NCBI GenBank assembly: GCA_030158285.1
Contig: JAOATF010000136.1
Location: forward strand, 1-46,489
DNA: 46,489 bases
Origin: Hyphomonadaceae bacterium
GTDB taxonomy: Bacteria; Pseudomonadota; Alphaproteobacteria; Caulobacterales; Hyphomonadaceae
Direction: 5' to 3'
Shown here: positions 6,478-31,363 of the stretch, in pieces
Position numbering within the stretch: position 1 is the first letter of the stretch
How the letters are laid out: the number at the start of each line of letters is the position of its first letter
The notes under the pieces: model-generated
The model's database searches: none
What the model saw: only the letters and a program-made list of their open reading frames with translations
What the model was told of the DNA's origin: nothing
Program-made: the position numbers and the translations under genes

Positions 6478-6498
6478 CGGGTCGAGTCACTTGTGTTG

Positions 6499-6524
6499 GT
6501 TCCGAAGTCCAGGGACTTCGGAAC
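6499..6524. repeat. 12-bp inverted repeat upstream of truB
   Basis: Perfect arms GTTCCGAAGTCC and GGACTTCGGAAC are separated by only 2 nt (AG). It lies 60-90 nt upstream of the truB start. It could be an operator for a dimeric regulator or a transcript hairpin; no T-run follows. Confidence 0.6.
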
Positions 6525-6646
6525 GGCTCGCGACGTAGGCGTGACGGGGGATCGGGTCAAGCAGGACTGCACGAATCGAGAAGCTGGGCTGCCTTGGTCT
6601 GCGGGGCGGGAGGCGTATGGTCGGGCGGACAAGCGGAGGGACGATC

Positions 6647-7057
6647 ATGGCGATGACGGGTGGATGTTATTGCGGGGCGGTGCGCTATGCGGCGGAGGGC
6701 GCGCCGATGCTGAAGGCGCAGTGCCATTGCCGCGCGTGTCAGCACGTCACGGGCGGGGCGCCGAACTATTTCATGCTGATGCCGGGGCAGGGTTTCAAGT
6801 GGACGCAAGGCGAGCCAAAGAGCTTTACCAAGCCGGACAAGGAGAACGCCGTCACGCGTTACTTCTGTCCGACATGCGGCACGCACATGACGACACAGCG
6901 CCCGGGCCTCGATGCGGTGATCCTCAAGGTCGGCACGCTGGATGAGCCTGCGCAGTTCGGCGCGCCGATGATTGCGATCTTTACCGAGGAAGAGCAGGCT
7001 TTCCATCTCGTGCCGCAGGGCGTGCCGAAATTCGACAAGCTGCCGCCGGGGCGATAG
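6647..7057 (+). CDS. GFA/CENP-V family zinc protein
   Basis: A 136-residue protein of the GFA family (glutathione-dependent formaldehyde-activating enzyme/CENP-V fold). It has the expected zinc ligands: CxC in GGCYCGAVRY, the CHCRACQ motif and the C-terminal FCPTCGTHM pair. Family members bind two zinc ions; most have no proven substrate, so a specific glutathione/formaldehyde role is not claimed. The start ATG at 6647 is preferred to an upstream in-frame start because GGAGGG lies 6 nt before it. The next plus-strand gene begins 66 nt downstream, so the two may be co-transcribed. Confidence 0.88.
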   Translation: MAMTGGCYCGAVRYAAEGAPMLKAQCHCRACQHVTGGAPNYFMLMPGQGFKWTQGEPKSFTKPDKENAVTRYFCPTCGTHMTTQRPGLDAVILKVGTLDEPAQFGAPMIAIFTEEEQAFHLVPQGVPKFDKLPPGR

Positions 7058-7123
7058 CGCCCTCGCTGGCGCGTCGCTGCGGCTTGGCCTAGTCTCGCCG
7101 CGCACTCACTCACGAGGTTTCCC

Positions 7124-7633
7124 ATGGCGTTGCTTGTCCTGAGCGTTGTCGGCAGCGACCGGCCCGGCCTGACCAAGGCGCTGGCGGCGGCTGTGTTGTC
7201 GGCGGGCGGCAACTGGCTGGAGGGGCATCTCTCGCGGCTGGGCGGGCTCTATGTCGGCTCGGTGCTGGTGGAGCTTGATAAGAGCAAGGTGGAGGCGTTG
7301 CGCGCGGCGGTGGCCGCTGTCGATGCGGCGGGGCTGGAAGTGCGCATTGCGCCGGCGGTGGAAACGGCGGGCGCCACGGGCGAGACGCTGGCCTTCTCGC
7401 TGGTGGGGCAGGACCGGCCGGGCATCGTCAACCAGGTGACGGCGGCGGTGAGCGAACTCGGCGTCAATATCGAGACGTTCCAGACATGGCTCACATCCGA
7501 GGCGCATTCGGGCGCGCCGCTGTTCCACATGGACGCGAACCTGCGCCTGCCGGTGGGGATGAACGCCGCGCGCGTGCAGGACGCGCTGGAAGCGATCTCG
7601 GGCGAGATCATGGTGGACTTCGCTCTCAACTAG
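7124..7633 (+). CDS. Double ACT-domain protein (GcvR-like)
   Basis: A 169-residue protein made of two ACT domains. The first begins LVLSVVGSDRPGLTKALA and the second LAFSLVGQDRPGIVNQVT (about residues 90-107). ACT domains bind amino acids and dimerise; this two-domain layout is that of the glycine cleavage regulator GcvR. In gammaproteobacteria GcvR antagonises the activator GcvA; no gcv genes are present here, so a direct glycine-cleavage role is inference. GAGG lies about 8 nt before the ATG. Confidence 0.85.
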   Translation: MALLVLSVVGSDRPGLTKALAAAVLSAGGNWLEGHLSRLGGLYVGSVLVELDKSKVEALRAAVAAVDAAGLEVRIAPAVETAGATGETLAFSLVGQDRPGIVNQVTAAVSELGVNIETFQTWLTSEAHSGAPLFHMDANLRLPVGMNAARVQDALEAISGEIMVDFALN

Positions 7634-30444: not shown

Positions 30445-30621
30445 ATGACGTTCGACGAAGAGCCAATCAGGGTTGTAAAACGCGGTCTGGACGACATGTC
30501 GATCCAGGAACTGAAAGAGCGGATCGAGACGCTGAAAGGCGACATTGCCGCCTGTGAAGCGATGATCCAGAAGAAGGAAGCGACCCGGAAAGCGGCGGAA
30601 GCGGCGTTTTTCAAGTCCTGA
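30445..30621 (+). CDS. DUF1192 small protein
   Basis: A 58-residue protein of DUF1192: FDEEPIRVVKRGLDDMSIQE, then LKERIETLKGDIAACEAMIQ and AEAAFF at the end. Function unknown; helical. Start 30445 is chosen because GGGAGG lies 8 nt upstream, whereas an ATG at 30439 is too close to that site. It precedes rcdA, as in relatives, but is separated from it by a regulatory region. Confidence 0.85.
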   Translation: MTFDEEPIRVVKRGLDDMSIQELKERIETLKGDIAACEAMIQKKEATRKAAEAAFFKS

Positions 30622-30626
30622 CGGAG

Positions 30627-30699
30627 CTGATGCCAAGCTGATGGCTATCTGGTAGATTTCTGACGCCAACCTGATGGAATTGCCAAAGTTCCCTGACAG
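30627..30699 (+). promoter_or_regulatory. 11-bp phased CTG half-site array upstream of rcdA
   Basis: Seven 7-mers spaced exactly 11 bp apart at 30627, 30638, 30649, 30660, 30671, 30682 and 30693: CTGATGC, CTGATGG, CTGGTAG, CTGACGC, CTGATGG, GCCAAAG, CTGACAG. Six of the seven start with CTG; the 4-nt spacers are mixed. The layout matches direct-repeat binding of OmpR/PhoB-type response regulators (Pho box CTGTCAT-N4-CTGTCAT). A TTGACA at 30724-30729 lies 25 nt further on. Confidence 0.7.
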
Positions 30700-30817
30700 G
30701 CGACCAGCGGCAAGGGACTTGCGTTGACACCGGTGAACAAGAGGCCCGCTGCAATCAAGGCTTGAGCAAGGACTGAAGCCGAAACTGCCGCCGGGACAGA
30801 GTTGATTTGAGGGACTG

Positions 30818-31363
30818 ATGCGCGACGCCATGCATTCCACCGATCCGACGCGCGATCATTGGAAAGAACGTGTCACCGAGTTCGCGGGATCGGAGATGTT
30901 CGATCGCCTGTTCAAGGAGGGCATGTCCCTCGTTGAGGAGGCCGCGAGCTATCTGGACGGCCCTGGCCGCGTGGATTCCCGCAAGCTTAATCGTGAACTC
31001 GCGTTGGTTTACGCTGCCGAGAGCATGGAAGTCACCACGCGCCTGATGCAGGCCGCCTCGTGGCTGGTGGTGCAGCGCGCCGTGCGCGAGAAGGACATGA
31101 AGGTCGAAGAGGCGGGCGACGAGAAATACCGCCTGTCCAAGCCCGGCGACCCGCACCCGGTGGATCGCAGCGTGATGCCGGCGCACCTGATGACGCTGGT
31201 GGACCGCTCGCGCGCGCTCTACGAGCGTGTCTGGCGCTTCGATGCGACGCTGTATTCGGAAACGCCGCAGCCGGCCGAAAACCCGGTGATGAAGCAGATC
31301 GATCGCCTGCGTCAGGCGGCCGAGGGCGGCGCCTTCGACCCGCTGTCGGTCTGGCGCCGCTAG
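30818..31363 (+). CDS. rcdA: RcdA-like CtrA-degradation adaptor (DUF1465)
   Basis: A 181-residue protein of DUF1465, the family of Caulobacter RcdA. In Caulobacter RcdA works with CpdR and PopA to deliver the master regulator CtrA to the ClpXP protease at the swarmer-to-stalked transition. The conserved middle GSEMFDRLFKEGMSLVEEAA and YAAESMEVTTRLMQAASWLV segments are visible, followed by a charged C-terminal part. GAGGG lies about 5 nt before the ATG at 30818; an in-frame ATG at 30830 is also possible. Upstream is a phased array of half-sites. Confidence 0.87.
   Translation: MRDAMHSTDPTRDHWKERVTEFAGSEMFDRLFKEGMSLVEEAASYLDGPGRVDSRKLNRELALVYAAESMEVTTRLMQAASWLVVQRAVREKDMKVEEAGDEKYRLSKPGDPHPVDRSVMPAHLMTLVDRSRALYERVWRFDATLYSETPQPAENPVMKQIDRLRQAAEGGAFDPLSVWRR

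Follow-up and report, generated by a model that had tools for sequence, protein, structure and literature searches.

A stretch of 46,489 nucleotides from a Hyphomonadaceae bacterium (the window) carries a row of similar heptamers at 11-bp steps between a DUF1192 gene and rcdA, which raises the question of what this row is and which protein would read it. In Caulobacter, rcdA is the gene of an adaptor for CtrA degradation. The source genome (G000) measures 4.19 Mb in 271 contigs and is 90% complete, and its nearest named relatives are mostly metagenome-assembled Hyphomonadaceae.

The array upstream of rcdA

The locus has the following features:

30445..30621, + strand: DUF1192 gene (PF06698), the upstream neighbour; start predicted from the alignment-conserved GGCCATGA
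30618..30624, + strand: CTGACGG copy containing the DUF1192 stop codon TGA (30619-30621)
30627..30632, + strand: half-site 1, CTGATG (7-mer CTGATGC); a conserved CTTGCG at 30718 lies 91 bp downstream
30638..30643, + strand: half-site 2, CTGATG (7-mer CTGATGG)
30649..30654, + strand: half-site 3, degenerate, CTGGTA (7-mer CTGGTAG)
30660..30665, + strand: half-site 4, CTGACG (7-mer CTGACGC)
30671..30676, + strand: half-site 5, CTGATG (7-mer CTGATGG)
30682..30688, + strand: empty step of the array, GCCAAAG, without CTG
30693..30698, + strand: half-site 7, degenerate, CTGACA (7-mer CTGACAG)
30708..30817, + strand: conserved stretch from the array to rcdA (AGCGGCAAGGGACTTGCG...), alignable in 11 members of the genus with the array present or absent
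30818..31363, + strand: rcdA (DUF1465, PF07323), 181 aa

When the sequence was read directly at 11-bp steps from 30627, six of the seven positions began with CTG and four of the seven matched CTGAYGS. An earlier note on this DNA had described seven 7-mers from 30627 to 30693, six of them with CTG, and this was borne out; its remark that most match CTGAYGS is fair but thin. Half-sites 1 and 2 form an exact CTGATG-N5-CTGATG, and half-sites 4 and 5 make up a second exact pair. A step of 9 bp instead of 11 separates the CTGACGG at 30618 from the first unit, so that this copy probably falls outside the array in this genome. The stretch 30708..30817 is the probable promoter and leader of rcdA. The layout is that of a tandem operator of the OmpR/PhoB family, in which same-strand half-sites are spaced by one turn of the helix in front of a gene.

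The array is real and exceeds what chance would give. None of 20,000 order-1 shuffles of the intergenic region 30622-30817 brought CTG to six of seven 11-bp steps, and 3,000 shuffles of the same region never placed any triplet at six of seven steps for any period of 8-14. In 395 kb of the same genome, six of seven CTG was not found at any period of 7-16 on either strand, nor any triplet at six of seven steps of period 11; the closest was one place with five of seven CTG at period 11. The pattern CTGAYG-N5-CTGAYG-N5-CTG occurred once in G000 and six times in 15 genomes of the genus, and never when read backwards. These counts agree with the earlier note in its view that an array of this length is unusual, and periodic CTG arrays are not common in the genome as sampled.

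Two other kinds of element were considered for this region and rejected. CtrA sites have the form TTAA-N7-TTAA, and no TTAA was present in 30622-30817. An RNA element is unsupported, since 30618-30710 (z 0.14) and 30700-30817 (z -0.15) folded no better than shuffled sequence.

It may be noted that the leader at 30708-30817 holds inverted repeats, GCAAG-N3-CTTGC and GTCTC-N5-GAGAC, seen by eye in many of the 11 aligned members of the genus. They occur independently of the array, the second is degenerate in the window, and they may be separate operators or promoter parts. By eye, many genus members also carry a GCTTGCG-type element about 70-80 bp behind ybgC at their tolQ loci (L138, L131 and others), often followed by a GCAAGC copy; it resembles the CTTGCG of the rcdA core.

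Conservation and recurrence of the half-sites

The region upstream of rcdA was compared across the genus. Three strict units were present in each of G005 and G001, three in G009 (the first being CTGATC) and two in G003. At rcdA of six close relatives (G004, G007, G010, G011, G012 and G013) no array was found, and G006, whose genome is 73% complete, gave no rcdA match. Conservation of the spacing, which the earlier note had offered as a check, thus held for the first four genomes and failed for the six. In the rcdA tree, G000, G009, G005 and G001 fell into one branch with the array-less G007, G013 and G004, with moderate support; the array would thus have been gained and then lost, or gained repeatedly. 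Measured from the conserved CTTGC[GC], half-sites stand at -69/-58/-47 in G000, G005 and G001, at -68/-57/-46 in G009, and at -46 and -35 in G003. The position of the degenerate half-site 3 is CTGATG or CTGATC in G005, G001 and G009.

An array of this kind might be a tandem repeat without function that slippage or duplication created past the DUF1192 stop. The number of copies differs between genomes (six to seven in one, three in each of three, two in one, none in others), in the window the unit pairs 1-2 and 4-5 resemble a 33-bp duplication, and in several genomes the stop codon itself lies within CTGACG or CTGATG. However, the six CTG units of the G000 array agreed in 69 of 90 half-site comparisons against 22 of 75 for the spacers. 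Between species, too, the half-sites were conserved and the spacers much less so: over the three steps shared by G000, G009 and G005, the half-sites agreed at 45 of 54 positions, the spacers at 16 of 45 and the adjoining 25 bp at 15 of 75, a comparison whose register was set by the half-sites and which favours them somewhat. Near-identical here, G005 and G001 differed at 3 of 15 spacer positions and at 0 of 18 half-site positions. As a recent tandem copy would keep its spacers, these figures suggest that the array behaves as a binding pattern and not as a copied repeat. Tandem Repeats Finder did not report the array, and the same pair recurs before unrelated genes. The repeat explanation is largely refuted, and we hold it to be very improbable.

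The recurrence was assessed by counting CTGAYG-N5-CTGAYG in 15 genomes of the genus. There were 97 such pairs against 48 for N8 (P 6e-5), the sole control spacing counted, which has equal codon phase and a 14-bp step. Five genomes were rich in sites (N5/N8: G000 15/5, G009 11/2, G005 9/6, G001 7/1, G006 11/2), with 53 against 16 in all (P 9e-6), and the other ten had 44 against 32 (P 0.21); since the five were singled out after the counts had been seen, the P values are descriptive. Outside rcdA, 22 of the 46 N5 pairs in these five genomes were intergenic compared to 2 of 16 for N8 (P 0.017), as judged by simple codon-usage gene calls (the sampled genome is 88% coding and about 12% non-coding). 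The 24 pairs in coding DNA look like chance occurrences. G000 has 266 CTGAYG pairs at spacings of 0-30, and among the roughly 100 listed only three had spacing 5; the apparent lack of enrichment was overturned by the counts by spacing. Triples of units were rare outside rcdA, and several of those found lay in coding DNA. One triple, CTGACG-N5-CTGACG-N5-CTGACT, was observed on the minus strand at position 1501 of L099 (G009:C119); a transposase-like reading frame immediately precedes it, and the gene of a large repeat-type protein follows after 434 bp.

Small PilZ-like protein genes lie downstream of 7 of the 22 intergenic pairs. They are of two types, 44-47% identical. In Pfam, the one type-A protein scanned had no match, and the one type-B protein scanned had a match to PilZ (PF07238) slightly below the cut-off (E 1.6e-4). 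When a type-A protein served as query across the genus (E 1e-8), 20 genes were recovered from 11 genomes. All six type-A genes, found only in the five site-rich genomes, have an exact pair upstream, which begins 106-124 bp before the start in five cases and, in the sixth, 47 or 149 bp depending on the start chosen. For the 11 type-B genes the figures were one exact pair, three pairs with one mismatch and seven without a site, and three further PilZ-like genes of G010 also had none.

A second group consists of large haem-peroxidase genes. In five of five (G000 C132, G000 C17, G005 C147, G009 C118 and G006 C77, not a systematic sample), CTGAY[GC]-N5-CTGA[CT]G was present at -73 to -76, followed by GAATA; the first half-site deviates from CTGAYG in four of them. 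With 209.9 and 147.9 bits, the two proteins of G000 clear the cut-off for PF03098, and the other three are fragments that scored 17.8-18.9 bits against a cut-off of 25. A promoter block before haem-peroxidase genes, in which GAATA adjoins the CTGA pair and TCGCA comes next, is common to four genomes (L348, L350, L335, L336, L351). Other pairs lie near an Hpt-type gene, rpsA/ihfB, a fecR-like gene and genes of unknown function, several of them named by eye, and some of these are surely there by chance.

Two genes for OmpR-family response regulators also adjoin sites in G000:

G000:C16:3440-4120: RR-A, OmpR-family response regulator with a histidine kinase downstream
G000:C132, about 6484-7164: RR-B, OmpR-family response regulator divergent from a haem-peroxidase gene

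Upstream of RR-A we found CTTACG-N5-CTGATG at -33 in G000 and CTTACG-N5-CTGACA at -32 in G009, and no good site in G005 or G001. A matrix was built from the PilZ, peroxidase and RR-A sites, without those of rcdA. In the 46-kb window it ranked the two rcdA pairs first (half-sites 1 and 2, 24.4 bits) and second (half-sites 4 and 5, 22.9 bits); the third match scored 13.2, and the best in the 395 kb scored 20.9. Such recurrence before other genes is a further property of tandem operators of the OmpR/PhoB family. That family had been proposed in the earlier note, and the proposal appears sound, as the sites recur with an 11-bp step, much of the time in intergenic DNA, and the genomes carry two related regulators of the family.

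Candidate regulators

The OmpR-family regulators were surveyed by their PF00486 domain, which gave 15 matches in G000 and 86 in seven relatives; seven genomes of the genus, including G003 with its two units at rcdA, were outside the survey. The matches read were 12 of 15 in G007, 8 of 8 in G004 and 10 of 12 in G013, and part of those in the others.

PhoB was the regulator offered as an example in the earlier note, which would link rcdA to phosphate starvation. The PhoB box is CTGTCAT-N4-CTGTCAT; like the array it has 11-bp tandem half-sites beginning with CTG, and PhoB is encoded. Unlike the box, however, the array lacks CTGTCA: neither CTGTCA nor TTGTCA occurs in 30610-30720. The recognition helix of PhoB is identical in site-rich genomes and in the site-poor G004 and G007, both without rcdA and PilZ sites, and no phosphate gene was recognised among the neighbours of the sites read. 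The link to phosphate was thus not upheld, and PhoB as the owner of the array is hardly credible.

CenR, a conserved envelope regulator, was a stronger candidate. It is essential in Rhodobacter sphaeroides, where its motif is TGA-N8-TGA with an 11-bp step (PMC9275681). This motif, like the array, is an 11-bp direct repeat with TGA, and TGA-N8-TGA pairs are found in the array at 30628/30639 and 30661/30672. With a matrix from 31 R. sphaeroides sites, which themselves score 0.4-15.2, the 30661 pair reached 12.2 bits, second in the window; the remaining array pairs gave -5.2 to 6.7 bits. Most of the published CenR sites precede the -35 element and point along transcription, which is how the array is placed relative to rcdA; they are for the most part T[CG][AG]C pairs and not arrays (PMC9275681). 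The CenR candidate of G000, named by resemblance, has D11-D13, D51 and D56 at the published positions. Its counterparts are 89-90% identical in G002 and G014 and 93-98% in 11 other relatives, and none was found in G004. Among these, G007 (98%) and G013 (95%) have neither rcdA nor PilZ sites. In R. sphaeroides, tolQ and cenR are CenR targets, and no exact CTGAYG pair was present in 13 tolQ and 14 cenR loci of the genus. CenR was therefore demoted to second place, being conserved in genomes poor in CTGAYG sites and lacking CTGAYG pairs at tolQ and cenR; we consider it quite improbable as the regulator here. Second CenR-like regulators were also encountered, in L195 (G003:C434) and G011:C46, 73% and 69% identical to the G000 candidate, and G003 has a third at 55%.

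ChvI was tried as well and set aside: the motifs given for it in PMC9731502, TTGC-N3-GCAA in Caulobacter and GCC-N8-GCC in Sinorhizobium, do not describe the array.

Of the groups of OmpR-type regulators compared, RR-A and RR-B followed the distribution of the sites best. RR-A occurs with its histidine kinase in G000 C16, G009 C136 (88%), G001 C27 (75%) and G005 C272 (74%), and RR-B stands beside a peroxidase gene in G000 C132, G005 C147 (73%), G006 C77 (71%) and G009 C118 (64%), with neighbours that resemble, by eye, a multicopper oxidase and an SCO-type gene. At least one of RR-A and RR-B is present in all five site-rich genomes, and neither was found among the matches read in G007 and G004. 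When 74 of the 101 matches from the eight genomes were grouped at 58% identity, 16 groups resulted; RR-B was the sole multi-member group confined to site-rich genomes, and RR-A was likewise confined except for a diverged copy in G013 (63% identical, with a similar recognition helix), a genome without rcdA or PilZ sites. Two further singletons, in G000 and G009, are uninformative in this grouping, which took in the CenR and CtrA proteins only in part. RR-A was not seen among 11 of 13 matches read in G006 (73% complete), nor RR-B among 8 of 10 read in G001 (78% complete), and for this reason neither was singled out over the other as the owner of the array.

In NCBIfam, PmrA ranked first for both RR-A (177.9 bits) and RR-B (151.4 bits), below the 330-bit equivalog cut-off, and their best solved relative is BasR/PmrA (8jo2, 4s04). 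The PmrA (BasR) box of Salmonella and Klebsiella is CTTAAG-N5-nTTAAT (PMC3973317). Like the array it has 6-bp half-sites on the same strand, 5 bp apart, the first beginning with CT; its CTTAAG/nTTAAT sequence differs from the CTGAYG of the array, and CTTACG in one half was seen only upstream of RR-A. Asn188 and Asn196 of the PmrA recognition helix enter the major groove, and Asn188 contacts a base (PMC4660055). RR-A and RR-B keep Asn188 and have Arg in place of Asn196. In PhoB, Arg201 occupies the latter place and bonds guanine (PMC3973317), and by analogy an Arg there would suit CTG in place of CTT. This Arg is not specific to RR-A and RR-B, because PhoB and CenR of G000 share it. A long array such as that at rcdA is a further difference from the PmrA box, and the targets seen here are other genes.

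The CTGAYG regulon might instead belong to another OmpR-family regulator, or to a member of some other family that reads direct repeats of 11 bp. Several OmpR-family paralogues have similar recognition helices, and only regulators with the PF00486 domain entered the survey. G007, which has no array at rcdA, carries CTGAAG/CTGACG-type pairs beside the genes of a QseB-like regulator and of a second regulator (L345, L346), hinting that paralogous regulators read related half-sites; the QseB-like regulator of G007 and G006 (helices NAVEVAISRLR and NALEATVSRLR) could, from these helices, read a similar sequence. Against this stand the better fit of RR-A and RR-B to the distribution of sites and their position next to sites. 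We regard a different owner as unlikely, if less so than CenR.

The reading that we favour, with some reserve, is that the array probably serves as a multi-dimer operator, within a lineage-specific regulon, and that its reader is an OmpR-family response regulator of PmrA/BasR-QseB type. The binding of RR-A and/or RR-B to the array, the sign of the regulation and the signal behind it are inferred.

Meaning for the control of rcdA

In the mechanism proposed, the half-site would be CTGAYG and the unit operator CTGATG-N5-CTGACG or CTGATG-N5-CTGATG. The regulator, once phosphorylated, would settle as dimers on half-site pairs, lined up head to tail along a single helix face immediately before the probable rcdA promoter, and a long array would give a graded or high-occupancy response of rcdA. 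Besides rcdA, such a regulon would comprise the genes of the small PilZ-like proteins and of the large haem peroxidases, and probably one of the regulator genes as well. At ompF of Escherichia coli there is reportedly a multi-dimer OmpR array with six OmpR. The rcdA array would be like it in that a single promoter carries several tandem sites for the same regulator of the OmpR family, and unlike it in half-site, regulator subfamily and target. Among the papers listed in searches on Hyphomonadaceae regulons, and on RcdA with PhoB/OmpR, there was no report of a CTGAYG regulon, and a search for rcdA together with DUF1192 gave no paper.

The earlier note had tied the array to RcdA-dependent proteolysis of CtrA, a tie that is open to doubt in this family. 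Hyphomonas neptunium, also a member of the Hyphomonadaceae, showed no obvious phenotype when rcdA was deleted, and its CtrA kept the same level and stability (PMC7200025). Hence, regulation of rcdA need not act through CtrA degradation. RcdA may, speculatively, have other clients.

In Caulobacter, CtrA activates rcdA (PMC4433202). We tentatively suggest, as a possibility well short of likely, that in one branch of the Hyphomonadaceae rcdA moved from CtrA control to a PmrA/QseB-like two-component system with a new half-site, CTGAYG, in which a rheostat of six to seven sites couples RcdA to the signal that also sets PilZ-like effectors and large haem peroxidases, joining life on surfaces to the cell cycle. 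What began as an odd repeat has become a testable regulon, for which there are two candidate regulators, a motif and a set of target genes in several genomes. If the interpretation is true, rcdA would have been rewired from CtrA to another two-component system, and a change of T to G in the half-site would pair with one residue of the recognition helix, making the evolution of PmrA/QseB specificity testable.
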